Assembly (NCBI RefSeq): GCF_003856975.1
Contig: NZ_CP033107.1
Span: forward strand, 3,534,001-3,598,000
From: Plantibacter sp. PA-3-X8
Lineage (GTDB): Bacteria > Actinomycetota > Actinomycetes > Actinomycetales > Microbacteriaceae
Direction: 5' to 3'
DNA length: 64,000 nt
The translations under genes were made by a program, and so were the position numbers. Below are positions 22,338 to 62,191 of this stretch, in pieces. Position 1 is the first letter of the stretch; the number at the start of each line of letters is the position of its first letter. The notes beneath the pieces were generated by a model. It saw only the letters and a program-made list of their open reading frames with translations, was not told the origin of the DNA and made no database searches.

Positions 22338-23323
22338 GCCGGCTGCAGCAGATCCCTGACGATGTCCAGCGCCCCCTGGCTCGCATACCGCTGGTACTCG
22401 CCGCGGGGAGCACGCAGCATGACGGGTAGGATCCGTCGCCACCGGGCCGGAGCGAGATCGGCCCGGAACCGCTCGAAGGCCGCTTTGGCGACGACGGACG
22501 AGGGATCGGCGCGCGGCGCGGGCTCACGGGCATCGTCGAGCCAGGAAGCGAGACCGGCGACGCGATCTGCGATGTCGCGGTTGCGCTGGCGCCCCGGCTG
22601 CATCAGTCTCGAGATCTTGTACGCCAGCGTCGGCTCGACGATCCCGATCTGGTTCGCGCCGTGCTGCCGGTAGTCGACGAGCGGTTCGTCCAGGAACTCG
22701 ATCGGTCCTCGTGCTGCGGCCACGATCGCCAACCACTCGTCGTGCACCCACGGAGCGGGGAACGGCGCTGCCGCGTCGAAGACCGCACGTCGGAACATCG
22801 CGGTCGCGCCAGTGACGAGGTTGCGTCGCAAGAGCACGCCGAACGCGTCGCCCGCGCGGATACGGTCGCGCTCGACCGGCCCGATCGACAGCGAGGCGAA
22901 CAGGGTGGTGCCGAGCGGGGTACCGTCGGCTCCGACGAGCCTGGCGTCCGAGCACACCAGTTGGAGCTCCGGACGCGCGTCGAAGGCGGCAAGGGCACGC
23001 TCGACGCGGTCGGGCCGCCATACGTCGTCCTGATCGGACAGGACGACCAGTTCCCCGACGGTCGCACGGATGGCGCTCTCGAAGTTGCGCGTCACGCCGA
23101 GCGCGGTCGGGTTCCGCAGGAAGCGGACCGGGACCGGCGACGCCTCGGCGAACCGCTCGACGATGGCGGACGTACCGTCGGTCGACCCGTCGTCGCTGAT
23201 CACGATCTCGCCGGGCAGCACCGTCTGCCGCGCGACACTCTCCAGCTGCTCGGCGAGGTACTCCCCACCGTTGTAGGTGCAGAGGGCGACGGACACGCGT
23301 TCGTCGACTGATGCTGCTGGCAT
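22334..23323 (-). CDS. GT2 family glycosyltransferase, rhamnosyltransferase-like
   Basis: A 329-residue GT-A enzyme with VSVALCTYNGGEYLAEQLES, VISDDGSTDGTSAIVERF and VLSDQDDVWRPDRVERAL. The SDQDDVW form of the metal-binding segment is common in rhamnosyltransferases that use dTDP-rhamnose, and rml genes stand at the right end of this window. The ATG at 23323 has GAGGAG 7 bases upstream. The C-terminal 80 residues are helical and Arg-rich. Acceptor unknown. Confidence 0.85.
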   Translation of the reverse strand: MPAASVDERVSVALCTYNGGEYLAEQLESVARQTVLPGEIVISDDGSTDGTSAIVERFAEASPVPVRFLRNPTALGVTRNFESAIRATVGELVVLSDQDDVWRPDRVERALAAFDARPELQLVCSDARLVGADGTPLGTTLFASLSIGPVERDRIRAGDAFGVLLRRNLVTGATAMFRRAVFDAAAPFPAPWVHDEWLAIVAAARGPIEFLDEPLVDYRQHGANQIGIVEPTLAYKISRLMQPGRQRNRDIADRVAGLASWLDDAREPAPRADPSSVVAKAAFERFRADLAPARWRRILPVMLRAPRGEYQRYASQGALDIVRDLLQPA

Positions 23324-23382
23324 GGATCCGCTCCTCACCGCTCACCGGACCACCCGACAGCCTATCCCGGCCGCCCCACTGG

Positions 23383-23388
23383 TATCCT
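23383..23388 (+). promoter_or_regulatory. -10 hexamer of leaderless GT4 gene
   Basis: TATCCT ends 8 bases before the ATG at 23397. There is no purine-rich ribosome-binding site. Confidence 0.5.
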
Positions 23389-23396
23389 CGTGCCTT

Positions 23397-24491
23397 ATGC
23401 CCCGCGTAGCCGTCGACCTCCTCTCGTACACCGGCACGAAGGGCGGTATGGAGACCTACGCCCGCGAGCTGTACCGCGAGATCGGCCGGCAGGGCAGCGA
23501 GTTCGAGTTCGTGGGGCTCGCCAGCCGAGAGGGCTACCAGCTCGACCGCTCCTGGTTCCCCGGCGAGATGGTGGACACGGGGATCAGCGGGGAGAACCGG
23601 TTCATCTGGGCCTACGGCGAGCTGTTCCAGGTGGCCCGCCAGGCGAAGCGACACGGGGCGGACCTCATCCACTCCCCCGCCACGCTCGGGCCGGCGCGAT
23701 CGTCGATGCCGTCCGTCGTGACCATGCACGACATGCTGTACTGGAGCAATCCGGAGCTCATGACGACGCCGCTGTACACCGCTCCCGTGAAGCTCATGGA
23801 GCGCCTCACCTCCAGGAACGCCACCAGGGTCCTCACCATCAGCGAGGTCTCACGTGCCGAGATCGAGAAGTACCTGCACGTCCCGCGGGCCCGGATCGAC
23901 CTCGTGCCCCTGGCCGGCACCATGCCGACGATCGACGGCGACCGCGACCCGGATCAGGAGCATCCGTTCGTCCTCGCGACCGGGAACCGCCGCCCACACA
24001 AGAACTGGGCGAGCCTCATCCGCGCCCTGCCGTTGCTCCTCGAGCACGAACGGCCGCGGCTCGTGATCACGGGCAGTCACGGCGACGATCCCCTGCGGGC
24101 GGTCGTCGAGGAGACCGGCATGCAGGACTGGGTCGAACTCAAAGGTTGGCTCACGAGCGAGGAACTGGGTGAGCTCTACCGACGAGCGACCATCATGGCG
24201 ATGCCCTCGTTCGTCGACGGGTTCAGCCTCCCGGCGCTCGAATCCATGATGGTCGGCCTCCCCGTCATGATGAGCGACATCCCCGTCTACCACGAGGTGT
24301 GCGGCGACGCGGCCCTGTACCTGGACCCCACGTCACTCGACAGCATCGCGTCGGTCATGCGCACCGCCGTGACCCGGCCCGATGAGATGAGACGACTGGC
24401 CGCGGCCGGTCTCGAACAGGCGGAGCGGTTCTCCTGGGAGCGCACGGCGACCCAGACGCTCGAGACGTTCCGGCGGGCACTGACCGTCTAG
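23397..24491 (+). CDS. GT4 family glycosyltransferase (mannosyltransferase-like)
   Basis: A 364-residue GT-B enzyme: PRVAVDLLSYTGTKGGMETY at the N-terminus, HSPATLGPARSSMPSVVTMH, then FVLATGNRRPHKNWASLIRA and MPSFVDGFSLPALESMMVGL in the donor domain. The pattern matches GT4 enzymes using GDP-mannose or similar donors (VLATGNRRPHKN type). The ATG at 23397 follows a TATCCT hexamer at 8 bases, pointing to a leaderless mRNA. An in-frame extension of 40 codons overlaps the divergent GT2 gene and is unlikely. It ends in front of a strong hairpin. Confidence 0.85.
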   Translation: MPRVAVDLLSYTGTKGGMETYARELYREIGRQGSEFEFVGLASREGYQLDRSWFPGEMVDTGISGENRFIWAYGELFQVARQAKRHGADLIHSPATLGPARSSMPSVVTMHDMLYWSNPELMTTPLYTAPVKLMERLTSRNATRVLTISEVSRAEIEKYLHVPRARIDLVPLAGTMPTIDGDRDPDQEHPFVLATGNRRPHKNWASLIRALPLLLEHERPRLVITGSHGDDPLRAVVEETGMQDWVELKGWLTSEELGELYRRATIMAMPSFVDGFSLPALESMMVGLPVMMSDIPVYHEVCGDAALYLDPTSLDSIASVMRTAVTRPDEMRRLAAAGLEQAERFSWERTATQTLETFRRALTV

Positions 24492-24600: not shown

Positions 24601-27120
24601 CTACTCCGACTGCGGCTGGATGATCGGGATCGACTCGGTGTCCGCCGGCCCGAGCGCGATGGTCGGCATCGACACGGTGATGAGCGAGCCGTCGGCACGG
24701 CGGCTGCCCTCGATGTCGCTCGCGCTCGGCTCGCCGACGAGGTGCGGACCCTGGTTGTCGAGCGGAACGGTGACCGTCGTGCCGGCTTCGACGAGGACGT
24801 TGCCGCCGCCGACGACGAACGAGGCGGAATCGCCCTCCTCGACGGTGAACCGCATCTCGGTGCGCCGGACGGAGATGCGCACCCGCGTGCCCTTGACGGT
24901 GAGCCGGAAGGTGATGCCCTGCCAGTCGACCGGCAGTCGCGGCGAGAAGGAGATCACGCCGCCGTGGTCGCGCATCCCGGCGAAGCCGAGCACGAGCGCG
25001 CTCCACACCCCACCGGTGGAGGCGACGTGCACACCGTCCGGGGTGTTGCGGTGCAGGTTGGCGAGGTCGACGAACAGCGCCGACCAGAAGTACTTGAGCG
25101 CGAGCCGCTGGTACCCGACCTCGGCGGCGATGATCGACTGCACGACCGCCGACAGGGTCGAGTCGCCCGTCGTCAGCGGGTCGTAGTAGTCGAAGTCGGC
25201 GAGCTTCTCCTCGTCGGTGAAGTGGTCGCCCTGCAGGAGCAGCGCGAGCACGACGTCCGCCTGCTTGAGCACCTGGAACCGGTAGATGACGAGCGGGTGG
25301 AAGTGCAGGAGCAGCGGGAGGTGCTCGGGAGGGGTGTGGTCGAGGTCCCACAGCTCCTTCTCGAGGAACTGGGCGTCCTGCGGGTGGATGCCGAGCCGCT
25401 TGTCGAAGGGGATGTGCATGTGCTCGGCGGCGCGCTGCCACTCGCGGACCTCGGCGTCGTCGAGCGACAGCCGCGTGACCAGGCGTTCGAAGGAGGCCGG
25501 ATCGTCCTCGCGGAGGCGCTCCACGGCCTCGACGGCCGACAGCAGGTTGGCCCGCGCCATGACGTTCGTGTAGAGGTTGTCGTTCACGACGGTCGTGTAC
25601 TCGTCGGGCCCCGTGACCCCGTAGATGTGGAACGAGTCCTTGCCGTTCGCGCGCCAGAAACCCAGGTCGGCCCACATGCGCGCCGTCTCGACGAAGATGT
25701 CGACGGCTCCGCGGGCGAGGAAGTCCTCATCCCCCGTCGCCGCGACGTACTGCCGCAGCGCATAGGAGATGTCGGCGTCGATGTGGTACTGCGCCGTGCC
25801 GGCCGCGTAGTACGCGGACGACTCGAGCCCGTTGATCGTGCGCCACGGGAACAGGGCGCCGTGCTGGTTGAGCTCGGTCGCGCGTGAGCGGGCGGCGTCG
25901 AGCATGTTCTGACGGAACCGGAGGGCGTTCCGCGCGACGAGCGGCGCCGTGTAGCTGAGGAACGGGAGGACGTAGACCTCGGTGTCCCAGAAGTAGTGGC
26001 CGCCGTACCCGGAGCCGGACACGCCCTTCGCCGCGACACCGCCACCGTCCGTGCGTGCGGACGCCTGCGCCAGCTGGAAGAGGTTCCAGCGCGTCGCCTG
26101 CTGGATTGCCGGCTGTCCGTGGACCTCGACGTCGGAGCGCGCCCAGAAGTCCTCGAGCCACAGCTCCTGGTTGCGGATCGCCGATTCGATGCCGTTCTCC
26201 GCGGAACGGTCGAGTGTGCGGGCACAACGGTCGGCGAGTTCTTTCGGAGGGACGGCGTTGGAGGTGTGGTAGCTGATGATCTTGGTGAGCTTCGTGGGCA
26301 CGCCCGCGCGGCCGCGGATCGTGTACACGTGCTTCGCCAGGTCGGCCTCGATGTGCGTCGAGACCTCGTACTCGTTCTCGGTCTCGATCATGTGGTCGGC
26401 GCCGGCCACGATCGTCATCCCGGAGTTCGTCGTCTGGTACCCGAGCATGGCGCGCGGACCGTCGATGAGCTTGAACCGCGGCTGCAGCACCCGCTCGGTG
26501 AGGGACTCCGCCTTGCGCGGGTCGCCCATCCCCGGCTCGGGTGCGTTCGTGAGGTAGTCGTCCTGACGGTCCTGCCGGTTGATGATCTGACTGGAGAGCA
26601 CGAGCGACGCGTCCGCATCGAGCAACGTGACCTCGTAGTCGAGGACCGCGAGATGGCGGTCGGTGAAGGACACCATGCGACGGGAGCGGATGTGGACCCG
26701 CTTGCCCGAGGGCGTCCGCCATTCGAGTTCACGGCTGAGGACACCGGTTTTGAAGTCGAGGCGACGCTCGAAGCTCAGGAGGTCGGCGTCGTTGAGGATC
26801 AACGGCTCGTCGTCGACGTAGAGGCGCACGACCTTCGTGTCGGGCGCGTTGACGATCGTCTGACCGACGCGGGCGAAGCCGAACGCCTCCTCGGCGTGAC
26901 GGATCGGCCAGGTCTCGTGGAACCCGTTGATGAACGTGCCGTGGACGTGGCCGTCGCGGCCCTCCTCGACGTTGCCGCGGAAGCCGAGGTAGCCGTTGCC
27001 GAGCGCGAACAGGGTCTCGGTCGTGCCCTCGTCGTCCGCGTCGACATGGGTCTCGACGAGTGCCCAGTCGTCGAGCGGGAACCGGTGACGGTCGAGCGGG
27101 TCGCTGGTGATGTGGTTCAT
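24601..27120 (-). CDS. GH65 family disaccharide phosphorylase (maltose/trehalose phosphorylase-like)
   Basis: An 839-residue cytoplasmic protein: an N-terminal beta-sandwich domain (residues 1 to about 290), an (alpha/alpha)6 catalytic barrel, and a C-terminal beta domain. The barrel has GYGGHYFWDTE (371-381) and the general-acid Glu507 in GVTGPDEYTTVVNDN. The family cleaves an alpha-glucosyl disaccharide with phosphate, inverting to give beta-glucose-1-phosphate. Maltose, trehalose, kojibiose and nigerose phosphorylases cannot be told apart here. The ATG at 27120 overlaps the upstream beta-phosphoglucomutase stop (ATGA), matching the functional pairing: that enzyme uses the beta-glucose-1-phosphate. 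Ends in front of a hairpin at 24541-24593. Confidence 0.9.
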   Translation of the reverse strand: MNHITSDPLDRHRFPLDDWALVETHVDADDEGTTETLFALGNGYLGFRGNVEEGRDGHVHGTFINGFHETWPIRHAEEAFGFARVGQTIVNAPDTKVVRLYVDDEPLILNDADLLSFERRLDFKTGVLSRELEWRTPSGKRVHIRSRRMVSFTDRHLAVLDYEVTLLDADASLVLSSQIINRQDRQDDYLTNAPEPGMGDPRKAESLTERVLQPRFKLIDGPRAMLGYQTTNSGMTIVAGADHMIETENEYEVSTHIEADLAKHVYTIRGRAGVPTKLTKIISYHTSNAVPPKELADRCARTLDRSAENGIESAIRNQELWLEDFWARSDVEVHGQPAIQQATRWNLFQLAQASARTDGGGVAAKGVSGSGYGGHYFWDTEVYVLPFLSYTAPLVARNALRFRQNMLDAARSRATELNQHGALFPWRTINGLESSAYYAAGTAQYHIDADISYALRQYVAATGDEDFLARGAVDIFVETARMWADLGFWRANGKDSFHIYGVTGPDEYTTVVNDNLYTNVMARANLLSAVEAVERLREDDPASFERLVTRLSLDDAEVREWQRAAEHMHIPFDKRLGIHPQDAQFLEKELWDLDHTPPEHLPLLLHFHPLVIYRFQVLKQADVVLALLLQGDHFTDEEKLADFDYYDPLTTGDSTLSAVVQSIIAAEVGYQRLALKYFWSALFVDLANLHRNTPDGVHVASTGGVWSALVLGFAGMRDHGGVISFSPRLPVDWQGITFRLTVKGTRVRISVRRTEMRFTVEEGDSASFVVGGGNVLVEAGTTVTVPLDNQGPHLVGEPSASDIEGSRRADGSLITVSMPTIALGPADTESIPIIQPQSE

Positions 27121-27980
27121 GCCTGGTCCTCGGAGGAGTCGTGGGGTGCCGTGAAGGTCTGGGAGTCGGCCGGATCGTCCGGCCCCGCTGTTCGCGAAGC
27201 CGACCGCAGTGGGTCGACGAGCTCGTCGAGGTCGTCGACCACGACGTCGGCTCCCGCATCGATGAGCGCCTGGTGCCCGATGCCGCGATCGACGCCGAGC
27301 ACGAGTCCGAAGTCGCCACGTCGACCGGCCTCGACCCCGGAGTGCGCGTCCTCGACGACGACGCATTCAGACGGCGCGTAACCGAGCAGACGACCGGCCT
27401 CGACGTAGGTGTCCGGCGCGGGCTTGCCGGCGATCCCCTCGCGCGCGGCGACGACGCCGTCCATCACGACCGGGAACCGCTCACGGAGTCCTGCCGCTCG
27501 GAGGACGACCTCGGCGTTCTTGGAACTCGACACCACGGCGACCTCGAGCCCTGCCTGCTCGACCGTGTCGAGGAAGGTCAACGATCCCGGGTAGGCGGCG
27601 ATGCCGTCCGCTTCCAGGACGGCCGTGAACACCGAGTTCTTCCGGTTGCCGAGACCGCACACGGTCTCCAGCTCAGGCGCGTCGGTCGGCGAACCCTCGG
27701 GGAGCGTGATGCCGCGTGACGCGAGCATCGCGCGCACCCCGTCGTACCGCGGTTTGCCGTCGATGTACTGGAAGTAGTCGGCGTCGGTGTACGGCTCGGT
27801 GATCCCATGGGCGAGGAGCTCGTCGGTGAAGAGCTTCGCCCAGGCGTGCATGTGGATCTCGGCGGTCGGGGTGATGACGCCGTCGAGGTCGAACAGCACC
27901 GCCCGGCAGCCGAGGAGCCGCGAGGCCGCCTCGCCGAGGGTCAGGACGTCGTTCGATGGCGCGTTGATCGGCTGGGTCAC
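27117..27980 (-). CDS. pgmB: Beta-phosphoglucomutase family HAD hydrolase
   Basis: A 287-residue HAD protein with the nucleophile/acid pair D31 and D33 in VLFDLDGVITPT, motif II in VAVVSSSKNAEVVLRAAGL, the Lys of GIAGKPAPDTYVEAGRLLG, and the acidic motif in CVVVEDAHSGVEAG. The long cap insertion is larger than in lactococcal beta-phosphoglucomutase (about 220 residues) but common in actinobacterial forms. It converts beta-glucose-1-phosphate to glucose-6-phosphate. It starts at a GTG with GAGGA about 9 bases upstream and overlaps the GH65 gene by 4 bases. Together they form a phosphorolytic disaccharide-use module inside the polysaccharide locus. Confidence 0.87.
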   Translation of the reverse strand: MTQPINAPSNDVLTLGEAASRLLGCRAVLFDLDGVITPTAEIHMHAWAKLFTDELLAHGITEPYTDADYFQYIDGKPRYDGVRAMLASRGITLPEGSPTDAPELETVCGLGNRKNSVFTAVLEADGIAAYPGSLTFLDTVEQAGLEVAVVSSSKNAEVVLRAAGLRERFPVVMDGVVAAREGIAGKPAPDTYVEAGRLLGYAPSECVVVEDAHSGVEAGRRGDFGLVLGVDRGIGHQALIDAGADVVVDDLDELVDPLRSASRTAGPDDPADSQTFTAPHDSSEDQA

Positions 27981-28068: not shown

Positions 28069-29256
28069 CTAGGAGAGTTTGGCCACCACGTCGTACACGC
28101 GGTCGATACCGGCGTGGACCGGGAAGTGGTGGTTGCCGACGAACAGCCCGTCCTCGTGGATCTTGTCGGCGGCGGGGAGTTCGGCCGGGACCTTCGCGTC
28201 GAGGTACTTCATGACCGGGTTCTTCGTGAAGTTGCCCGCCACGATGGGCCGTGACTCGATCCCCTCGGCAGCGAACGCCTGCACGACCTCCTTGCGTCGG
28301 CCGGCGAGCGCGCCCTCGAGCACGAGGGAGAAGCCGAACCAGCTGCTCTCGCCCTGCTCGCGCTGGATGCGCACGGAATCGAGGTCGGCGAAGCGCTCCG
28401 TCCAGTACACGGCGTTCTCCCGACGACCCGCGATGAGCGACGGGACCTTCTGGATCTGCTCGATGCCGATCGCGCCGGACATCTCGAGCGGACGGACGTT
28501 GTAACCGGGAAGGACGAAGCGGAAGAGGTCGTCCCACTCGTCGCCCGACTTGTCGTGGACGGCGTTCTTCTCGGGGAGCCCACGGGTCCAGCCGTGGGCC
28601 CGCAGCGAGATGAGCATCTGCGCCGTGGCCTCGTCGTCCGTCAGGATCATCCCGCCCTCCATCGTCGAGATGTGGTGGGAGAAGAAGGCGCTGAACGTGC
28701 CCATCGCTCCGACCGTTCCGGCGAACCGACCGTCGTCCTTCGCGCCGAGCGACTCGCAGTTGTCCTCCAGCAGGAGGAGACCGTGACGTTCGGCGAGTGC
28801 CGTGAGCGCCGCGAAGTCGTTCGGGTTGCCGAGGAGGTTGACCGCGAAGATCGCCTTGGTGCGCGGGGTGATGGCGGCCTCGGCGAGCGATAGATCCAGG
28901 TTGAGGGTGTCGACGTCGATGTCGACGAAGCTCGGGATGAGGCCGTACTGCTGGAGCGGGTAGTAGGTGGTGGCCCACGACACGGCGGGCACCAAGACCT
29001 CGTCGCCCGCCTGCAGGTCGACCCGCTCGTCGAGGACCGCAGCGGCGATCGCGAGGAGGTTCGCGCTCGACCCGGAGTTGACCATGACGCCGAATCCGGC
29101 GCCGAACGCACTGGCGAAATCGCGCTCGAACTGCGCGACGAGCGGACCCATGGTGAAGCGGCCGCTGTCGACGACGCGCTGGATGGCGGCGTACTCCGCA
29201 GCATCCCAGGAGGAGGTGGCGAGGGGGAAACCGGAGTCGAAAGTGTCGTCGGTCAT
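28069..29256 (-). CDS. colD: PLP-dependent sugar 3-dehydratase, ColD-like (His in place of catalytic Lys)
   Basis: A 395-residue protein of the DegT/DnrJ/EryC1/StrS fold: SGSSANLLAIAAAVLDE, VSWATTYYPLQQYGLIP, the cofactor-binding LLLEDNCESLGAK (Asp165), and SAFFSHHISTMEGGMILTDD. In sugar aminotransferases the latter segment holds the PLP-linking Lys. Here it is His-His (194-195), the known mark of GDP-4-keto-6-deoxymannose 3-dehydratase (ColD) and of the CDP-hexose E1 enzyme. The E1 type needs extra cysteines for a [2Fe-2S] cluster. This protein has only one Cys (Cys167), and its length matches ColD (about 390). It overlaps the upstream reductase gene by 4 bases and shares an operon with gmd. 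Confidence 0.82.
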   Translation of the reverse strand: MTDDTFDSGFPLATSSWDAAEYAAIQRVVDSGRFTMGPLVAQFERDFASAFGAGFGVMVNSGSSANLLAIAAAVLDERVDLQAGDEVLVPAVSWATTYYPLQQYGLIPSFVDIDVDTLNLDLSLAEAAITPRTKAIFAVNLLGNPNDFAALTALAERHGLLLLEDNCESLGAKDDGRFAGTVGAMGTFSAFFSHHISTMEGGMILTDDEATAQMLISLRAHGWTRGLPEKNAVHDKSGDEWDDLFRFVLPGYNVRPLEMSGAIGIEQIQKVPSLIAGRRENAVYWTERFADLDSVRIQREQGESSWFGFSLVLEGALAGRRKEVVQAFAAEGIESRPIVAGNFTKNPVMKYLDAKVPAELPAADKIHEDGLFVGNHHFPVHAGIDRVYDVVAKLS

Positions 29257-30188
29257 GCTGTCTGTGGCTCCTGAGCTGCGAGGTAGGCGTGGTAGCTCGC
29301 GGCGACGCCGGCCGCGAGCGGGGTGGTGGGGTTCCAGCCGAGCGCACGGGCGGCGGCCGAATCGAGCAGGCGCTGGTGCACGCCGGACGGCTTGGTGGCG
29401 TCGTACCGGAAGTGACCGGTGAAGCCGGCGGCGCGACCGGCTGCTTCGTAGTACTCGGTGATGCTGTGGTCGACACCCGGCCCGAGGTTGAGCGTGACGG
29501 GCCAGGCGTCGAGCGAGCCGAGCTGCGTGACGAGCCACGCCGCGAGGTCGGGCGTGTAGGTGAATTCGCGTCGGGCGGTGCCGTCGCCCCAGACCTCGAC
29601 CTCGTCGGAGCCGCTCGTCACGGCGGCGTGCACCTTGCCGAGGGCGGCGGCGATGAGGTGCGCCTGACCGTGGGTGTAGTCGTCGCCCGGGCCGTAGAGG
29701 TTCGACGGCACGGCTGCGCGATAGGCGAACCCGTATTGCCGACTCGCGTACTCGCAGAGCTTCGTCCCGGCGATCTTCGCGAGCGCATATCCCTCGTTCG
29801 CGCCCTCCAGCGTGCCGCTGAGGAGCGCGCCCTCGCCAATCGGCTGTGGGAGCCCCTCGGGGTAGATCGCCGCGCTCGACACGTAGAGCAGCTCGGGGAC
29901 GCCGGCGTCGATCGCGCCTCGGATGACCGAGGTGTCGATCAGGAGGTTGTCGAGCAGGAAGTCGGTGGGACGCTGCAGCTTCGCCTGGATGCCGGCGACC
30001 TTCGCGGCGGCGTGCACGATCGCGTCCGGCGACGTGCGTCCGATGAGGGCGGCGACGGCGGCACGATCGGTGAGGTCGGCGTCTGCGCGCGTCGCCACGA
30101 TCAGTTCGTCGGCAGCGCGGAGCGTGGGCCAGACCTCGGCGATGCTCGAACCGAGCATGCCGGCACCACCGGTGAGGAGGACGCGCAC
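29253..30188 (-). CDS. colC: NAD(P)-dependent epimerase/reductase, GDP-colitose/GDP-fucose synthase-like
   Basis: A 311-residue short-chain dehydrogenase: GGAGMLGSSIAEVW at the N-terminus, VHAAAKVAGIQAKLQRPTDF, YVSSAAIYPEGLPQPIGEGA and the catalytic YALAKIAGTKLCEY. The SSAxIYP and Y-A-x-A-K-I-A-G segments are typical of GDP-fucose synthase (Fcl) and its relative ColC, which epimerises C5 and reduces C4 of the GDP-4-keto sugar. Because the adjacent gene encodes a ColD-like 3-dehydratase, GDP-L-colitose is the likelier product than GDP-L-fucose. It lies 5 bases downstream of gmd. The sequence alone cannot exclude a related reductase giving another 3,6-dideoxyhexose. Confidence 0.78.
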   Translation of the reverse strand: MRVLLTGGAGMLGSSIAEVWPTLRAADELIVATRADADLTDRAAVAALIGRTSPDAIVHAAAKVAGIQAKLQRPTDFLLDNLLIDTSVIRGAIDAGVPELLYVSSAAIYPEGLPQPIGEGALLSGTLEGANEGYALAKIAGTKLCEYASRQYGFAYRAAVPSNLYGPGDDYTHGQAHLIAAALGKVHAAVTSGSDEVEVWGDGTARREFTYTPDLAAWLVTQLGSLDAWPVTLNLGPGVDHSITEYYEAAGRAAGFTGHFRYDATKPSGVHQRLLDSAAARALGWNPTTPLAAGVAASYHAYLAAQEPQTA

Positions 30189-30193
30189 CGCGC

Positions 30194-31225
30194 CTAGACC
30201 TCCGCGGTGTCGATGTAGGGCTTGCCCGACGCCTCGAGCTCGGCGACGTCGGAGTCGACCATGATCTGCGCGAGGCGCGGTGGCAGCACCTTCGGGGTCC
30301 AGCCGAGGACCGACTCGGCCTTCGCGTAGTCGCCGATCAGCGCGTCGACCTCGGTGGGACGGAGGTAGCGCTCATCGAACTTGACGTACTTCTCCCAGTC
30401 GAGGTCAAGCCGCTCGAAGGAGAACTGCAGGAAGTCCTTCACGGTGTACGCGGTGTTGGTGGCCAGGACGAAGTCGGTCGGTTCGTCGGCCTGCAGCATC
30501 CGCCACATGCCCTCGACGTAGTCGGGCGCGTAGCCCCAGTCGCGGACGGCGTCGAGGTTGCCCATGTACAGGAAGTCCTGCTGGCCGGCGGCGATGCGCG
30601 CCGCGGCGCGGGTGATCTTGCGGGTCACGAAGGTGCCACCGCGTCGCGGCGACTCGTGGTTGAACAGGATGCCGTTGACCGCGAACATGCCGTAGGCCTC
30701 ACGGTAGTTCCGGGTGATCCAGTAGGAGTAGACCTTCGCGACGCCGTAGGGCGAGCGCGGGTAGAAGGGGGTCTCCTCGTTCTGCGGCGGCGGCGTCGCC
30801 CCGAACATCTCGGAGCTCGACGCCTGGTAGAAGCGGCAGTGGAGACCGACCTGACGGATGGCCTCGAGGAGCCGGACCGTCCCGATGCCGGTCGTGTCGC
30901 CCGTGTACTCCGGCTCGTCGAAGCTGACGCGCACGTGGGACTGGGCGGCGAGGTTGTAGACCTCGTCTGGCTGGATCTCGGCGAGCAGCGTCGCTAGGCG
31001 CGACCCGTCGGCCAGGTCGGCGAAGTGCAACTGGAGCCTGGGCGAACCGTCGTGGGTCGCCTCGGGGTCGTAGATGTGGTCGATCCGGCCGGTGTTGAAG
31101 GTCGACGCGCGACGCACGAACCCGTGCACCTCGTAGCCCTTCGACAGCAGGAGCTCGGCGAGGTAGCTGCCGTCCTGACCGGTGATGCCGGTGATGACAG
31201 CTTTCTTCACGGGGGTGTCAGTCAT
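30194..31225 (-). CDS. gmd: GDP-mannose 4,6-dehydratase
   Basis: A 343-residue short-chain dehydrogenase with [19 protein letters not shown], the [15 protein letters not shown] loop, [29 protein letters not shown], and the catalytic Tyr-Lys in [20 protein letters not shown], followed by [18 protein letters not shown]. These are diagnostic for Gmd, which makes GDP-4-keto-6-deoxy-D-mannose from GDP-mannose. The ATG at 31225 is chosen over a 62-codon N-terminal extension because family similarity begins at residue 9 and a GAGCGGA stands upstream. It heads the operon gmd - colC-like - colD-like. GDP-mannose supply is suggested by manA in this window. Confidence 0.93.
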
Positions 31226-31315: not shown

Positions 31316-32203
31316 GTGACGCTCGACATCATGATGCCCTTCTACGGCCGCTTCGACCACTTCCAGGCGGCGGTGGAGAGCGTCCTCGCGCAGTCCGATC
31401 CCGACTGGCACCTGACCATCGTCGACGACGTCTACCCGGACCTCGCCCCGGGTCGGTGGGCTGTCGGGCTCGGCGATCCGCGCATCACCTACATCCGCAA
31501 CGAGGTGAACCTCCGCCCCTCGAAGAACTATCGCAAGTGCGTGTCCCTCATGTCCGGGGAGTTCTCCGTCATCATGGGCTGCGACGACGTCATGCTGCCG
31601 GACTACGTCCGCCGCGTGCGCGAGCTCATCGCCGCATTACCGCACGCCTCGATCATCCAGCCCGGTGTCTCGGTCATCGACGAGAACGGCACACCCTCCC
31701 GTCCGCTCGCGGACCGGATCAAAGCGCTCTACCGGTTCTCCGGAACCGGTGCCCGCGAGTACCGGGGGGAGCAGCTCGCGACGAGCCTGCTCCGCGGCAA
31801 CTGGACGTACTTCCCCTCGCTCGTCTGGCGGGTCGAGGCGCTCAGGAAGCACGAGTTCCGACTGGACCTCGATGTCGTGCAGGACCTTGCGATGCTGCTC
31901 GAGATCACGAAGGACGGCGGGAGTCTGGTCCTCGACGACGAGATCTGCTTCGCGTACCGCCGGCACTCGCAGAGCGTCTCCGCGGTCACCGGTCCGGACG
32001 GCTCGAAGTTCCGTCAGGAGCGCACGCTGTTCGGAGAGGCCCGGCGCGATCTCCGGGCGATGGGATGGAACCGGGCCGCGCGCGCCGCCGCGAACCACTG
32101 GACCTCCCGCGCCAACGCCCTGAGCGAGCTGCCCGCAGCCCTGCGCGCTCGGAACACCGCAGGACGCCGTGCCCTGCTGGAGCACGTGTTCGCGCGAGTC
32201 TGA
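31316..32203 (+). CDS. GT2 family glycosyltransferase
   Basis: A 295-residue GT-A enzyme: [38 protein letters not shown], and the metal site in [20 protein letters not shown]. The C-terminal part carries [17 protein letters not shown] and [10 protein letters not shown], typical of family 2 chain-extending transferases. The start is a GTG only 6 bases after a TAGCTT hexamer, so the mRNA is probably leaderless. It is divergent from the gmd operon with 90 bases between the starts, so it may transfer the dideoxy sugar made by that operon. That link is by position only. Confidence 0.8.
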
Positions 32204-34532: not shown

Positions 34533-35828
34533 TCAGGAAATCGGGTCGTCCGGCGCCGGCGGGCCGAGATGCACCGACGCCGGCCGCCGCAGAGCGACGA
34601 TGTGCACGATCAGACCGGCCACCGGGCCGACGATCATCGCGAGGATCGTGCGCTCGTGCAAGCCCAGCGGCAGGAGCAACGCGATGATCGTGGAGACGGC
34701 GGCGACGATCCAGCCACCGGCGAACGGCCCGTGCTGCGCGCGCGACAGGGTGGCCGCGCCCGTGACGCACAGAACACCGACGAGGCCCGCGGTCGCCACG
34801 AGGAGGGCGATGGTGCCCCCGGACAGCACGTCCGCACGCCCGAACAGGATCGAGAGGGCCCACGGACCGAGCCACCAGGCGAGCAAGGACAGGAGGCCCG
34901 CACCGGCGAGCACGATGATCGCGAACCGGACGACCCGGCCGAGCATGGCGTCGGCGTCGGTACGGAAGACCACGACGAGATAGCTCTGCAGTGCGAGCAC
35001 GACGATGACGATCGGTGCCCTGGTGAGGGTGATGGCGTAACTGAGGGAACCGAACGCGTCCGAGGAGACGATGTCGCCGGTCGCCTGGATCATCAGCGGC
35101 AGGCCACTGACCATGACCCCGGTCGCGGCGGCGGCGGTGACGGTCCGCAGGACGTTCCAGCTGAGTTCCCGCGGTCCGACGTCGATCCCGAACCGCCCGA
35201 CGACACCGCGCCGGATGAACGGCCAGAGGATGAGCGGGGTGATGGCGAAGGGAAGCGTCACGCCCCAGGCGAGGACCGCGATATCGGTGGTGAGCGAGAG
35301 CATGACGGCCACGATGGCGAACCGGACGAGCCCGTCGACGATCGTGAGGGCCGCAGCGGACGCCCAGAGCGAGAGGCCGTAGAGCACGCCCGCGGTCGCA
35401 GCGACCACGACGTAGGCGGCGAGGCCGATGACGAGCGGAAGCACCAGCGACCAGCCGTTCGCGGGGAAGACCGCGCCGACCCAGATCCAGGCGGTGCCGG
35501 CGATGAGCACGGCGATGATGAGCGCCGCGACCACCGCGAAGTTGCGGACGACCGGCGCACGGGATGCGCCCCGTGCTCCCTCACCGAGGACGTGGGTGGC
35601 ACGCGCGACCTCCTGCTGGACGCCGGACAGCGCGCTGATGAGCAGGTAGAGCGCCGACCAGAAGACCGCGAACGGCGCGTAGGCCGCCGTCCCGAGGGCT
35701 GCGCCCGTGATGATCTGGAGGAGGTAGCCCGCGCCTCCCCCGATGGCGGTCGCCGCGAGGATCAGGACGGCACCGTTCGGCCCGCGGCGCACGGCCTCGG
35801 GCGGAACGGCGCTATCGCTGGGCGGCAA
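34533..35828 (-). CDS. Oligosaccharide flippase family protein (second Wzx-like)
   Basis: A 431-residue protein with about 12 hydrophobic helices (AVLILAATAIGGGAGYLLQI onward; LYGLSLWASAAALTIVDGLV; GDIVSSDAFGSLSYAITLTR), typical of polysaccharide-transport flippases. It starts with TTG at 35828, supported by CAGGAG a few bases upstream, and overlaps the epimerase gene by 17 bases. Sequence similarity with the flippase at 21057 is low by eye, so it probably handles a different repeat unit. Confidence 0.82.
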   Translation of the reverse strand: MPPSDSAVPPEAVRRGPNGAVLILAATAIGGGAGYLLQIITGAALGTAAYAPFAVFWSALYLLISALSGVQQEVARATHVLGEGARGASRAPVVRNFAVVAALIIAVLIAGTAWIWVGAVFPANGWSLVLPLVIGLAAYVVVAATAGVLYGLSLWASAAALTIVDGLVRFAIVAVMLSLTTDIAVLAWGVTLPFAITPLILWPFIRRGVVGRFGIDVGPRELSWNVLRTVTAAAATGVMVSGLPLMIQATGDIVSSDAFGSLSYAITLTRAPIVIVVLALQSYLVVVFRTDADAMLGRVVRFAIIVLAGAGLLSLLAWWLGPWALSILFGRADVLSGGTIALLVATAGLVGVLCVTGAATLSRAQHGPFAGGWIVAAVSTIIALLLPLGLHERTILAMIVGPVAGLIVHIVALRRPASVHLGPPAPDDPIS

Positions 35829-36879
35829 TCCACTCCTGCAGCGCCGCGACCCCCCGCGTGACGTCCCAGGCCGGGGCCCAGTCGAGTCCGGCGAGCGTGT
35901 CGTCGATGCTGCACTCCGCGTGCCGGACGTCGCCGTCGCGGTACATCCCGTTGATCACCGGCGCGGGCGCGCCGTGATAGGCCGCGATGGCCTGTGCCAG
36001 CTCGAGGATGGTCGTCCCGACGCCCGAACCGATGTCGAAGCGGGACACGTCGGCGGACGGTCCGGCGGTGATGACCGCGCGGAAGGACTCCGCGATGTCG
36101 TCGATGAAGACGAAGTCACGGACGATCCGACCGTCCTCGTACACCTGGATCGTGCCGCCGTCCATCGCGAGCTGGGAGAAGAGGGAGACGATGCCGGTGT
36201 AGGAGTTGATGAGCGACTGGCCGGGACCGTACACGTTCTGCAGCCGGAGGACGGTGAGCTTCGCGTCGTGGGCGGCGGTCCAAGCGGACAGGATGTGCTC
36301 CTGGGCGAGCTTCGTCGCTCCGTAGACGCTCGTCGGGGCCGGCATGGTGACCGCGGCCCGGCTGGGCAGGGGTGAGGCCTCCGGGAAGTCCCACTCGCCA
36401 CGTTCGAACTGGGCGTGCGAACGTTGCCCGGGCTCGAACACGGACCCGTCGGTGCGCCGCCACTGGCCCTCGCCGTAGACCGCGCGGCTCGACGACAGGA
36501 CGAAGTGTCCCGGGACCTGCCCCGCCCGACCGAGCGCGTCGAGCATCTCCGTCGTTCCGACGACGTTCGCCTGAGCGTGGCTCGTGGCGGCGTGGAGGGA
36601 CTGCGCCGTGCCGGTCTCGGCGGCCAGGTGGACGATGACGTCCGGCTCGACGTCAGCCAGCAGGGCGTCCCAGGCGGCGGCGTCGGTCACGTCACCGACG
36701 ACCAGCTCGGCTGCCTCGTGGAGGTCGGCGGGCCGTTCTGCGCTCGGATGGACCTGCGGGTGCAGTTTGTCGATGACGACCCACCGCTCGGCTGTGGCAG
36801 CCAGCTTGTGGGACAGCGCGCAGCCGATGAAGCCGGCGCCTCCCGTCACCAGAACGGTTCCGAGCGTTGTTGCAGTCAC
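35812..36879 (-). CDS. NAD-dependent epimerase/dehydratase (dTDP-rhamnose 4-epimerase-like)
   Basis: A 355-residue extended short-chain dehydrogenase: TVLVTGGAGFIGCALSHKLA, FVLSSSRAVYGEGQWRR, a ~35-residue insertion (FEPGQRSHAQFERGEWDF), then SVYGATKLAQEHILSAW with the catalytic Tyr-Lys and VYGPGQSLINSYTGIVSLFS. The insertion between the SSS strand and the Y-x3-K helix is reminiscent of dTDP-L-rhamnose 4-epimerases (6-deoxytalose formation). UDP-hexose epimerase is the alternative. GTG start, with AAGGA about 11 bases upstream. It overlaps the flippase gene by 17 bases, which ties the product to that export unit. Confidence 0.7.
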   Translation of the reverse strand: MTATTLGTVLVTGGAGFIGCALSHKLAATAERWVVIDKLHPQVHPSAERPADLHEAAELVVGDVTDAAAWDALLADVEPDVIVHLAAETGTAQSLHAATSHAQANVVGTTEMLDALGRAGQVPGHFVLSSSRAVYGEGQWRRTDGSVFEPGQRSHAQFERGEWDFPEASPLPSRAAVTMPAPTSVYGATKLAQEHILSAWTAAHDAKLTVLRLQNVYGPGQSLINSYTGIVSLFSQLAMDGGTIQVYEDGRIVRDFVFIDDIAESFRAVITAGPSADVSRFDIGSGVGTTILELAQAIAAYHGAPAPVINGMYRDGDVRHAECSIDDTLAGLDWAPAWDVTRGVAALQEWIAAQR

Positions 36880-47528: not shown

Positions 47529-49589
47529 TCAGCGGTACAGAACGTCGCGGATCGCCATCAGGTAGGACTTGCCGAAGCGGAGCGTCGGTTCGAGGACGGC
47601 GCTCTCCGCCCATTCGTTCCAGGCGTTGACGAAGACCAGACGGTGCTCGTGGTCGCGGTCCGCGACGGCCGACACGGCCGCATCGAACCAGCGTCGGAAC
47701 GTGTACGGGTTCGAGCCCCACCAGAGATCCGGCTGCCACTGGCGTCGGGCCGTGTTGTCGTAGTTGACCATCACGCCCGGGTAGCGGTCATCGGACACAC
47801 CCTCCAACAAGGTGAGCTCGGCGTTCTCCACCATGGCGTCGTAGCGGAACGTGTTCCCCTGGAACCGGTCGTCGAACTCCGTGTCCGCGCGGTCCCATGG
47901 GCTCCACAGTTTGTTGTGGGGAGCGAACTCCATGTACGCGTCCATGCCGTGCTCGGAGAGGTCGCCTTCGACCCCGTCGAACGCGCCGCTCACGTCCACG
48001 CTGAGGAGCAGGAGGTCATCCAACCCTGCCTCACGAGCGACCTGACGCCAGTAGGCGACGACCGAACGGTACTCGGGGATCTGGGTGATCCGGTAGACAC
48101 CGAGCACCGGGCGACCGTCGACTCGGATGTAGCGGTCGTCGGTGAGCAGGTCGATGACGTCGTGGATGAACTGCGTCGCGGGGACCCGCTCGTAGTCCTG
48201 ACCGATCAGGACGTTCGTCGAACGTCCGTCCCATCGCCGCGTGAAGTTCTCGTTCGCCCACATGATGCAGAACGGTTCGTCATCGGAGTCCGCGACCAGC
48301 TGTTCCACCGGCAGGTTCATGAGCTTCTTGCCCGCGAACCAGTAGTAGTAGTACATGAAGCCCTCGATCCCCATGGACTGGGCGAGGTCGTACTGCTTCC
48401 GCCGGGTACCGGGCGCCCGGAGGTCGTAGAAGCCGAAGTCGCTGGGGAGCAGCGGTTGGTTCTGCCCCTCGTAGATGGCCTGTGCTCCGGCGACGTTCGA
48501 CCATTCGGTGAAGCCGGTGCCCCACCACTGGTCGTTCTCGGGGAAGGCGTGGAACTGCGGGAGGTAGAAGGGGACCGCCCTGGCCCGCGGTGCCACTTCG
48601 GCATCCCGTCGGAACCGCTTCCAACCGTCGGACTCGACATCGCTCGAGGAGGCGGTGAGCGAACCGACCTCGCGCAGGTCGTATCCGGCCTCCTCCGTGA
48701 CGATGCCGATGAGGCGCTCGACGCCGTGCGCCGTGGTCGCGTCGACCTGCCCGGCCTCCGCCTCGAAGTCCCACTCGCTCAACTGCAGCGCGCGGAGACC
48801 CTGCAGGATGAAGCCGCGGACCCAGTAGACCGAACCGGACGCGAAGTGGAGGGTCTCCGGTTCGAGTTCGAGCTGGAGACGCTTGAGCAGCGCCTCGACG
48901 ATCTGCTGGTCGCCGCCCCAGAACTCGGGACCGACGAGGTTGCCGTCGGCGGTCAGGAGACCGAGGGCCGGGTCCCCGGCGAATGCCGAAAGGATGGACT
49001 CGACGTGCTCCGGCGAGCCGAGCAGGCCGGCGTACAACGAACGGCGCCACTCATCGCCCGTGCCGCTGAGCTCCGTGTGCTCGGCACGCCAGGCACTGCG
49101 CTTCGTGTGGATCTTGAGGACCAGCTCGTACGGCTCCAGGATGTCGGCGTTGACCAGCGACACGAGCGGCAGGATGTCGCGTCCCTGGTTGTTCACCTCG
49201 TACACCTCGACCCGCCCGACGCGGTCGAGGGACGAGGTGTCGAGGTCGAGCGGGACGCCGGTGGCGTTGGTGACGATGAGGTCGAACTCGACGGGCAGGT
49301 GCTGCAGCTCGTGGAGGATCTCCGGCACGAGCTCGGCGTAGAAGACGTGCACGACCACAGCGACGCGCGCGGCGGGCACTGTCGACGCCTCGCGCATGCG
49401 CCACTCGCTCGGGAAGAGCGAGGTCAGGCGGTCGTTGCGTCGTCGCAGCCAGTTCTCGAACCCGGCCGGATAGGCCGTCGGCACGTGGTGCTGGACGATG
49501 GCCGGGTCGAGCTCGGCGAGTTTGACGCCCGCGGAGATCATCTTGCGGCCGGCGAACCGCTTCGCGCCGCCGGGGGTGATTCTTCTCAT
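47529..49589 (-). CDS. RgpF - WbsX fusion protein (rhamnan synthesis / glycan-processing)
   Basis: A 686-residue two-domain protein. Residues ~70-320 resemble the rhamnan synthesis F family (VAVVVHVFYAELVPEILHEL; EVYEVNNQGRDILPLVSL; YELVLKIHTKRS; GTGDEWRRSLYAGLLG). Residues ~335-686 match the WbsX/GH99-like family (PFYLPQFHAFPENDQWWGTG; FTEWSNVAGAQAIYEGQNQP; GFYDLRAPGTRRKQYDLAQS; GIEGFMYYYYWFAGKKLM; WANENFTRRWDG; FVNAWNEWAE). RgpF proteins are needed for rhamnose-rich polymers. WbsX proteins are cytoplasmic partners in O-antigen loci of unsettled activity. ATG at 49589 with GAGG upstream. It lies 3 bases after the RgpF gene and belongs to the ABC-exporter operon. Confidence 0.85.
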   Translation of the reverse strand: MRRITPGGAKRFAGRKMISAGVKLAELDPAIVQHHVPTAYPAGFENWLRRRNDRLTSLFPSEWRMREASTVPAARVAVVVHVFYAELVPEILHELQHLPVEFDLIVTNATGVPLDLDTSSLDRVGRVEVYEVNNQGRDILPLVSLVNADILEPYELVLKIHTKRSAWRAEHTELSGTGDEWRRSLYAGLLGSPEHVESILSAFAGDPALGLLTADGNLVGPEFWGGDQQIVEALLKRLQLELEPETLHFASGSVYWVRGFILQGLRALQLSEWDFEAEAGQVDATTAHGVERLIGIVTEEAGYDLREVGSLTASSSDVESDGWKRFRRDAEVAPRARAVPFYLPQFHAFPENDQWWGTGFTEWSNVAGAQAIYEGQNQPLLPSDFGFYDLRAPGTRRKQYDLAQSMGIEGFMYYYYWFAGKKLMNLPVEQLVADSDDEPFCIMWANENFTRRWDGRSTNVLIGQDYERVPATQFIHDVIDLLTDDRYIRVDGRPVLGVYRITQIPEYRSVVAYWRQVAREAGLDDLLLLSVDVSGAFDGVEGDLSEHGMDAYMEFAPHNKLWSPWDRADTEFDDRFQGNTFRYDAMVENAELTLLEGVSDDRYPGVMVNYDNTARRQWQPDLWWGSNPYTFRRWFDAAVSAVADRDHEHRLVFVNAWNEWAESAVLEPTLRFGKSYLMAIRDVLYR

Positions 49590-49592
49590 GTG

Positions 49593-50423
49593 TTACCTCG
49601 GCTTCGTGTCCGGTGTGGTCGGCAACCAGTCCATCGGGTCTTCCCCGAAGGCGGCTCGTACGGTCTCGCGAGCGCGGACGCCGTCGGCGACCACGCTCGG
49701 GTTGGTGATGATCTCCCGCTTCACGAACGGGAACCCGAGCTGGACGAGTCGGCGCCAGCCACGGATGACCGGGTTCTCCCCCGGTTCGACGACCTGGGCG
49801 TGATCGATCCAGGCGCTCGTGACGTAGGCCTCGACGTGGAGCAGCTCGCTCAGCCCGATCTCGTACTGGTCGATGATCTGCTGCTTGTCGTCGTGGTCGA
49901 CGAGCGTGCGCCAGAAGGTGCGGACCGGGCGGTCCCGGAGCATCCCGTTCCGGAAGCCCAGGAGGTAGCTCTGGAGATGCGGCGAGAACTGGAGCGTGTT
50001 CGTCGCGCCCCAGACGTCCGTGTCGCGAGTCTCGAAGTCCTCGAGCATCGGCTGCAGCGACCCGAACGGGCCGACGAGTGAATCGTTCGCAAGCAGCACG
50101 AACGGGGCCCGGAGCAGCTGCGGGTACAACGCCATCCCGGTCGCCCATGAACCGAAGTCGTACCCGATGTTGGGCTTGCGCACCACCAGCGCCTCGGGAG
50201 GCGTCGGCCAGACCAGTGGTTCGACCGAGTCCGACGCACGGACGACGACGACGAAGTAGCCGCAACGGGCGAGTTCCGAGACGAGAGTGGAGAGCGACCG
50301 TGAGACGTGCGGATCCGCGCCCCAACTGGCGACGAACGCCACCCGCTCAGGGTGCGTCGGGAGCGCTCGAGGGCGCTCGACCACTACCCGAGGGAGGACC
50401 TCACGCAGAACGGTACCGCCCAC
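49593..50423 (-). CDS. rgpF: Rhamnan synthesis F family protein
   Basis: A 276-residue protein with the RgpF core: VAFVASWGADPHVSRSLSTL, VRKPNIGYDFGSWATGMALY (the N-x-G-Y-D-F-G-S-W block is diagnostic), FVLLANDSLVGPFGSLQPML, DVWGATNTLQFSPHLQSYLL and FWRTLVDHDDKQQIID. In streptococci RgpF takes part in side-chain addition to the rhamnose polymer. The GTG start follows the coiled-coil gene's stop by one base, and the next gene begins 3 bases after its end, so the module is tightly co-translated. Acts in the cytoplasm; the sugar specificity is unknown. Confidence 0.88.
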   Translation of the reverse strand: MGGTVLREVLPRVVVERPRALPTHPERVAFVASWGADPHVSRSLSTLVSELARCGYFVVVVRASDSVEPLVWPTPPEALVVRKPNIGYDFGSWATGMALYPQLLRAPFVLLANDSLVGPFGSLQPMLEDFETRDTDVWGATNTLQFSPHLQSYLLGFRNGMLRDRPVRTFWRTLVDHDDKQQIIDQYEIGLSELLHVEAYVTSAWIDHAQVVEPGENPVIRGWRRLVQLGFPFVKREIITNPSVVADGVRARETVRAAFGEDPMDWLPTTPDTKPR

Positions 50424-51969: not shown

Positions 51970-51971
51970 GT

Positions 51972-61585: not shown

Positions 61586-62191
61586 TCAGTTCCCCTTCAA
61601 GGTCGCGTAGAACGCCCGGGCGTCGTCCCAGGTCGGCAGGAGGCCGGCGGCGGCCGCCTCGTCGAGACCGGGGGCCTCGGTGTCCTTCGGTGAGAGCAGA
61701 GGCGTGCCGGCCTCCGGTGGGATGACGAGACCGATCCGCTCGTCGAGCGGGTTGATGCCGTGCTCGCGGTCGGGACGGTACACGTCGGTCACGAGGTAGC
61801 TGACGGTGGCGTCGTCGGTCAGGGCGACGAAGCAGTGGCCGAGGCCCTCGGAGATGAAGATCGCCTTGCGGTCGGTGTCGTCGAGCAGCACTGAGTCCCA
61901 CTGGCCGAAGGTCGGTGAGCCCACGCGGATGTCGATGACGTAGTCGAGGACGGCACCGCGGGTGGCCGTGACGTACTTCGCCTGCCCGATCGGGATGTCG
62001 GCGAAGTGGATGCCGCGCACCGAGCCGCGCTTCGACACCGAGGTGTTGGACTGGGCCAGCTTGATCGACCGACCGGAGGCCTCTTCGAGCTTGTCGAAGC
62101 GGTACCACTCGAGGAACACGCCTCGGTCGTCGCCGAACTGCTTCGGCGTGATCTCATAGCTGTCGGGGACGTTCAGTTCGCGGATCTGCAC
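61586..62191 (-). CDS. rmlC: dTDP-4-dehydrorhamnose 3,5-epimerase
   Basis: A 201-residue cupin enzyme: [40 protein letters not shown] with catalytic His62, [20 protein letters not shown], and [20 protein letters not shown]. These are RmlC landmarks. It epimerises C3 and C5 of dTDP-4-keto-6-deoxyglucose. The GTG at 62191 lies 6 bases after TAGACT, so the operon mRNA is probably leaderless. It heads the operon rmlC - rmlA - WsaF-type transferase - epimerase. Confidence 0.93.

Follow-up and report, generated by a model that had tools for sequence, protein, structure and literature searches.

A colitose-type operon of Plantibacter with a cysteine-less ColC-family reductase, predicted to make GDP-D-tyvelose

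Here, we examine a window of 64,000 nucleotides, corresponding to positions 3534001-3598000 of the one-contig 4.08 Mb genome of Plantibacter sp. PA-3-X8, and describe an operon of three genes: gmd, a gene for a short-chain dehydrogenase/reductase (SDR) of the Fcl/ColC family, and a gene for a ColD-like protein. The operon probably makes a GDP-3,6-dideoxy-D-hexose, most likely GDP-D-tyvelose, through a colitose-type pathway that lacks C5 epimerisation. This proposal is supported by the close relationship of the putative dehydratase to ColD, by the loss of the epimerase cysteine from a reductase that is otherwise intact, and by the covariation of further residues with that cysteine.

The genes, called with a custom GC-frame script and no gene finder, all lie on the minus strand. 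The product of gmd (30194..31225, 343 aa, PF16363) passes the Gmd model TIGR01472 with 488.3 bits vs a cut-off of 415. A gap of 5 bases (30189-30193) separates gmd from the SDR gene (29253..30188, 311 aa), the product of which is proposed to be a C5-retaining GDP-4-keto-3,6-dideoxy-D-mannose 4-reductase catalysing step 3. The SDR gene in turn overlaps by 4 bases (29253-29256) with the gene for the ColD-like DegT-fold protein (28069..29256, 395 aa), the putative PMP (pyridoxamine phosphate)-dependent GDP-4-keto-6-deoxy-D-mannose 3-dehydratase of step 2. The initial annotation had described exactly this packed trio, and its gap and overlap are borne out.

Compared with all solved structures, the ColD-like protein matches Escherichia coli ColD (WbdK) best, at 444-449 bits (phmmer 1.2e-133), followed by E1/RfbH at 172-176 bits and perosamine synthetases at 136-137 bits, and it shares 54% of its residues with ColD of E. 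coli O55. Within the motif SHHISTMEGG (residues 193-202; 28651..28680, minus strand), His194 aligns with the catalytic His188 of ColD and His195 is the adjacent residue; both histidines, like most of the motif's residues, show no variation among the relatives aligned (25 of 25). Chain 3b8x_A, which we take to be the H188N mutant of ColD, carries N in this alignment column. The sole cysteine in 395 residues is C167, so that the iron-sulfur set of E1 is absent, and the RfbH model gives 261 bits, under its cut-off of 423. The histidine in place of the PLP (pyridoxal phosphate) lysine and the single cysteine were both claimed initially and both hold, and the comparison of ColD, E1 and perosamine synthase that was called for then places ColD clearly closest (449, 176 and 137 bits, respectively). 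Reading the protein as an aminotransferase is ruled out by the replacement of Lys by His in a ColD orthologue, and reading it as E1/SpnQ by the presence of one Cys, vs the four needed for [2Fe-2S]. The ColD assignment is as secure as sequence allows. A Gmd together with a ColD orthologue implies a GDP-linked 4-keto-3,6-dideoxyhexose, and it is very likely that the operon makes such a GDP-4-keto-3,6-dideoxy sugar.

What would the third enzyme do with this intermediate? In GDP-L-fucose synthase (GFS, Fcl), Ser107, Tyr136 and Lys140 serve reduction, and a Cys109/His179 dyad serves epimerisation, according to passages of PMC7949155. The roles within the dyad are assigned oppositely, as base/acid in PMC7949155 and as acid/base in PMC8787198, but the passages concerned agree that it belongs to epimerisation. 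The window SDR is 38% identical to ColC and has GFS as its nearest relative by sequence and fold. It possesses the ColC-type reductase triad (Ser105, Tyr134, Lys138), and its epimerase dyad is incomplete: His177 is retained and the Cys is gone, with Ala107 of the motif SSAAIYP (residues 104-110; 29859..29879, minus strand) at the position of Cys109 (SSCIYP / SSCMYP in Fcl/ColC). With 286 bits vs 500, the protein also stays under the cut-off of the NCBIfam Fcl model NF047922. ColC of E. coli O55, in which both residues of the dyad are present, that of Yersinia similis and the other aligned Gram-negative ColC proteins retain Cys109, with the exception of one on a contig labelled Rhodobiaceae (Thr; L091). 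Among the homologues of the window SDR (the best 120 of 1433 matches among 8000 scored candidates, the window's own cluster included), all 120 lack Cys109, having Ala (106), Val (12), Ile (1) or Ser (1) instead, and all retain the His and the reductase triad (position 107: Ser in 118, Thr in 2). Those that carry a name in their sources are called "GDP-L-fucose synthase" or generic epimerase/dehydratase, and one is a hypothetical protein. Campylobacter Fcl homologues without Cys109 are described in part of PMC7949155 as C4 reductases lacking epimerase activity, and the human GFS variant C116S yields a product that is mostly not inverted at C5 (passages of PMC12362431). As L-colitose requires C5 epimerisation and the Fcl-type Cys/His dyad is missing its Cys, colitose is poorly supported as the product.

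The history of this residue was followed in a tree of 96 partner SDRs, built with the motif columns left out. Duplicates and rows shorter than 250 or longer than 480 aa were omitted (including L017 and L056, cut by a contig end before residue 109), as were L020, L024, L107 and L114, for which no ColC-like neighbour was found, and L025, a distant Haladaptatus SDR. Residue 109 is Cys in 57 rows, Ala in 27, Thr in 10, Val in one and Asn in one. The 28 Ala/Val rows form a single clade (SH-aLRT 100) nested in an actinobacterial clade of 45 rows (97), the remaining 17 of which retain Cys109, and the Thr rows form one clade of marine archaeal metagenome-assembled genomes (MAGs) and the Rhodobiaceae contig. 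Well-supported branches require at least three changes at residue 109. The ColD tree is nearly congruent, with two changes between Cys and Ala/Val partners; its long branches (L114, L024, L072 and L071) were flagged.

The other residues that distinguish these groups were sought by comparing, in Fcl numbering, the columns of the 28 Ala/Val rows with those of 56 Cys-type rows, in which Asn72, Cys109, Thr132 and Lys283 are present without exception. In the Ala/Val rows Asn72 is replaced by Lys (28 of 28), Cys109 by Ala (27) or Val (1), Thr132 by Ala (27) or Pro (1), and Lys283 by Arg (28 of 28); a fifth column that splits the groups, Arg24, lies in an insertion without an Fcl counterpart. Across the whole tree 57 of 96 rows have Cys109, Thr132 and Lys283, and the other 39 have none of the three; four of these 39 retain Asn72. 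The Lys at Fcl position 72, Lys70 in the window protein, is also found in each of the best 120 homologues; in the archaeal Thr-type rows this position is occupied by Ser or Asn and not by Lys. Human GFS Asn79 corresponds to Fcl Asn72 by an offset of 7, the same as for the catalytic residues. Passages of PMC12362431 describe for the human enzyme that Asn79 and the residue matching Fcl Asn133 join the sugar pocket, that Asn140, adjacent to the Thr132 position, turns to the sugar, and that a Lys holds the beta-phosphate together with Arg215; the covarying positions are in this way placed close to the active site. In GMER a Lys acidifies the catalytic Cys, as stated in part of PMC8787198; we infer, without a source, that this is Lys283. 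Taken as a whole, the covariation looks like the removal of an epimerase function accompanied by a reshaping of the sugar site.

A ColD-like protein at 61-100% identity occurs in 19 of 249 genomes of the family, the window's own counted, the next match by E-value in these genomes being 31% identical (1e-50), and in an order-level sample 9 of 396 genomes, the window's among them, have a ColD match at 1e-90. A scan of named genomes yielded 579 confirmed colD loci, of which the best 80 span Actinomycetota, Pseudomonadota, Bacteroidota, Bdellovibrionota, marine archaeal MAGs and others; the closest named ones are from Plantibacter (Microbacteriaceae), with ColD 99% identical. In 79 of these 80 loci an SDR of the ColC/Fcl type directly precedes colD on the same strand, the exception being L071, where it follows colD, and gmd lies approximately 2 kb upstream in all 21 Ala/Val-type loci among them. 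Within the same 80 loci, Cryobacterium, Microbacterium, Cellulomonas, Agromyces and Arthrobacter each include both Cys-type and Ala-type representatives. Cys-type ColC/ColD pairs are found in several actinobacterial genera, and the rarity of an actinobacterial route was overstated at the outset. Colitose is known from Gram-negative lipopolysaccharide according to passages of a review (PMC8987622), and part of a 2020 survey predicts L-colitose pathways across phyla and considers their absence from the TACK archaea worth remark (PMC7725333).

Several of the more distant loci have features of their own. Ten marine MAG contigs (L073, L078, L079, L082, L084, L085, L090, L091, L093 and L095) carry a Thr109 ColC-like/ColD pair and belong to Poseidoniales-type archaea, apart from the one labelled Rhodobiaceae, which may be mis-binned. 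No gmd was found on these ten loci by tblastn with two gmd queries, and a gene neighbouring the pair in L095 resembles CAP59-type mannosyltransferases. A more distant ColC/ColD pair, L113 (G609), has Asn at the Cys109 position (GSANAYP), with Thr132 and Lys283 also replaced. On the Haladaptatus plasmid L025, gmd is followed, in the order of the window, by genes for a distant SDR (24% identical) and a ColD-like protein (41% identical), which makes this haloarchaeal locus another possible 3,6-dideoxy sugar operon.

How might the three enzymes of the window work together? Gmd would convert GDP-mannose into GDP-4-keto-6-deoxy-D-mannose; ColD, with PMP near His194 and glutamate as the amino donor, would remove the C3 oxygen; and the SDR would reduce the C4 ketone with NADPH without prior inversion of C5, because the epimerase base is lost. 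D-tyvelose (3,6-dideoxy-D-arabino-hexose) and L-colitose are epimers at C5, and GDP-D-tyvelose is therefore the predicted product. We infer in this scheme the substrate, the missing epimerase activity and the stereochemistry at C4. The initial annotation had proposed "GDP-L-colitose or a close 3,6-dideoxy sugar": the second option stands, with D-tyvelose leading, and the first loses ground with an SDR that lacks Cys109, Thr132 and Lys283. It had also placed the sugar in a surface polymer. The operon does sit in an actinobacterial surface-polysaccharide locus, the rest of the window being rich in glycosyltransferases, O-antigen-ligase-like proteins and a sugar-phosphate transferase, and the GDP-3,6-dideoxy-D-hexose would presumably be destined for a cell-surface polysaccharide. 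A broader and more tentative proposal is that epimerase-less ColC gives actinobacteria GDP-D-tyvelose from GDP-mannose in three steps and that, with the same loss (Cys to Thr) in Poseidoniales-type MAGs, D-series 3,6-dideoxyhexoses could have a second route that has arisen repeatedly, independent of CDP chemistry and of the CDP-tyvelose 2-epimerase. GDP-tyvelose and its variants are not mentioned in the literature searched (5.39 million papers), outside which most subscription journals lie; no description of a GDP route to tyvelose was found there either, the described route being the CDP one with a 2-epimerase.

A number of observations weigh against GDP-D-tyvelose as the product. The human GFS variant C116A has activity below detection and shows no clean reduction (passages of PMC12362431), so the loss of the Cys alone is no guarantee of a working reductase. 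DdahC reduces a non-epimerised substrate but favours a pre-epimerised one, as described in part of PMC7949155. The covariation of Cys109, Thr132 and Lys283 amounts to three changes on the tree and to three independent pairs, all concordant but a number too small for significance (sign test p 0.25), and a single clade of the Ala/Val and Thr rows has an approximately unbiased (AU) test p of 0.078, so that a single origin of the Cys loss is not formally rejected. No paper in the literature searched connects tyvelose to Microbacteriaceae or to wall sugars, and none of those that mention it together with actinobacteria and cell walls is, by title, on actinobacterial walls. Tyvelose may have been described among the wall sugars of certain Microbacteriaceae, which we do not count as evidence. 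The acid residue His177 is retained, and Lys70, gained at a sugar-pocket position, could possibly serve as a replacement base. The SDR might thus invert C5 and make GDP-L-colitose after all, His177 being the acid and Lys70, or some other residue, the base. The gene order shared with Gram-negative gmd-SDR-ColD loci, the retention of the His179 equivalent in 96 of 96 rows and the invariance of the Lys at position 72 in the Ala/Val rows and the closest homologues would fit such an enzyme. We nevertheless regard it as unlikely: no row has lost one of Cys109, Thr132 and Lys283 without the other two, as if an epimerase site had been dismantled, the archaeal Thr-type rows do not share the Lys, and related actinobacteria retain an ordinary Cys-type ColC.

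L-colitose could also arise if the SDR acted as a reductase only and a separate enzyme inverted C5, for example RmlC, the dTDP-sugar 3,5-epimerase encoded at 61661..62176 (minus strand; PF00908, 182 bits). Campylobacter uses a separate C5 epimerase and an SDR reductase for 3,6-dideoxy-L-heptoses (passages of PMC10440746), and the Ala-type genomes tested all have an RmlC (10 of 10), which likewise counts against GDP-D-tyvelose; each of 7 Plantibacter genomes has one copy. The window genome's only PF00908 match, however, lies approximately 31 kb from the operon, beside rmlA and near rmlD, as expected for dTDP-rhamnose. An external C5 epimerase is possible, yet the gene order gives no hint of one, and we consider this route very unlikely. 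Retention of C5 with delivery of hydride to the opposite face would instead give GDP-3,6-dideoxy-D-lyxo-hexose, the C4 epimer of tyvelose. A ColD-type dehydratase with an epimerase-free C4 reductase is described in part of PMC10440746 as leading to GDP-3,6-dideoxy-D-arabino- or D-lyxo-heptose, the Campylobacter C4 reductases giving either configuration from a 3-deoxy heptose substrate. By stereochemical reasoning, GFS, the nearest relative of the window SDR, sets the C4 configuration that matches D-arabino, and the lyxo sugar seems improbable. Finally, the public name of many close SDR homologues, "GDP-L-fucose synthase", would point to GDP-fucose of the usual kind or to some other 6-deoxy sugar, and to an aminotransferase role for the DegT protein. 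This is barely credible given the His that replaces the aminotransferase Lys, the SDR score under the Fcl cut-off and the missing Cys that fucose synthesis needs. An ordinary fucose synthase is disfavoured beyond the operon as well: none of 10 Ala-type genomes has an Fcl over the cut-off. A second Fcl that might provide epimerase activity was not found either: each of 7 Plantibacter genomes has a single Fcl-family SDR at E 1e-15, and in the 10 Ala-type genomes the neighbour of colD scores 253-289 bits with the Fcl model, while the next matches reach at most 64. The 7 Plantibacter genomes also have no match to CDP-glucose 4,6-dehydratase that passes its cut-off (best 75 vs 278 bits); this and their single Fcl-family SDR count in favour of GDP-D-tyvelose.

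Which enzyme could transfer GDP-D-tyvelose, if this is the donor made? We compared the flanks, to a reach of 8 kb, of 19 Ala-type and 11 Cys-type actinobacterial loci chosen from the best 80 of 579, and observe a linkage to particular glycosyltransferases. A GT4 family, paired by eye with the gene at 23277..24491 (plus strand), occurs within this reach at 14 of 19 Ala-type and 0 of 11 Cys-type loci, the latter count being partly an effect of flank length, because GT4 lies at 9.3 kb in two Cys-type genomes. At E 1e-60 in the 249 family genomes, every one of the 14 Ala-type genomes has it, as do 2 of the 4 Cys-type genomes, 8 of the 230 without colD and the one with a truncated SDR that lacks residue 109 (Ala-type vs rest, Fisher 1.6e-16, uncorrected for relatedness). 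In all 14 Ala-type genomes, which span 8 genera, it lies at most 11 kb from colD. This GT4 is the best candidate 3,6-dideoxyhexosyltransferase; because it also accompanies two Cys-type loci, it cannot by itself tell which sugar is transferred. The eight genomes that have GT4 and lack such a ColD match (G028, G059, G078, G098, G103, G122, G178 and G194) may use another sugar donor route, or GT4 may have another acceptor role there. The Plantibacter genome G224 has two GT4 copies, at C1:2784174 (96% identical to the window's, with one in-frame TGA by search count) and at 2792134 (63%). A GT2 glycosyltransferase (31316..32203, plus strand) co-localises with Ala-type colCD too, within 8 kb at 12 of 19 Ala-type and 0 of 11 Cys-type loci; at E 1e-40 it is present in 14 of 14 Ala-type, 1 of 4 Cys-type, 0 of 1 undetermined and 40 of 230 genomes without colD. 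An NAD-dependent epimerase/dehydratase-like SDR (35812..36879, minus strand) lies within 8 kb at 9 of 19 Ala-type and 0 of 11 Cys-type loci.

Elsewhere, the window encodes two acyltransferases, an ABC exporter, rmlA, rmlC and rmlD. Immediately downstream of colD, and on its strand, lie genes (24601-27980) for a glycoside hydrolase/phosphorylase of family 65 and for a HAD enzyme of the beta-phosphoglucomutase type; the pair resembles a disaccharide phosphorolysis system and is probably unrelated to the sugar pathway. At 47529-50423, RgpF-like rhamnan synthesis domains are split across two neighbouring genes, one of them fused to a WbsX-type domain, and adjoin a Wzt-like ABC exporter (50770-52883).

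If GDP-D-tyvelose is indeed the product, the operon would allow a rare sugar donor to be prepared in a short enzymatic sequence, and the automatic name "GDP-L-fucose synthase" would be corrected for many members of the family. The presence or absence of Cys109, Thr132 and Lys283 would then provide a sequence rule that separates L-colitose from D-series sugars in genomes.

In conclusion, the operon combines features of several known systems. The GDP-L-colitose pathway of E. coli O55 and Yersinia (Gmd, ColD/WbdK and ColC/WbdJ) uses the same three enzyme families, and in E. coli O55 the SDR gene directly precedes colD with a 4-base overlap as in the window, but gmd is approximately 10 kb away, and the window SDR differs from E. 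coli ColC in its 38% identity and the absence of the three covarying residues. The 3,6-dideoxy-heptose pathway of Campylobacter jejuni resembles the window in pairing a ColD-type dehydratase with GFS-like C4 reductases, but has a heptose substrate, a separate epimerase and a Gram-negative capsule as its destination (passages of PMC10440746). In comparison with GDP-L-fucose synthase (Fcl/GMER), the window SDR lacks the Cys base and misses the NCBIfam cut-off. The CDP-tyvelose pathway of Salmonella and Yersinia, encoded by RfbF/G/H, RfbS and RfbE, shares the proposed end sugar with the window, but reaches it on a CDP carrier, by E1/E3 iron-sulfur chemistry and through a 2-epimerase acting on paratose.

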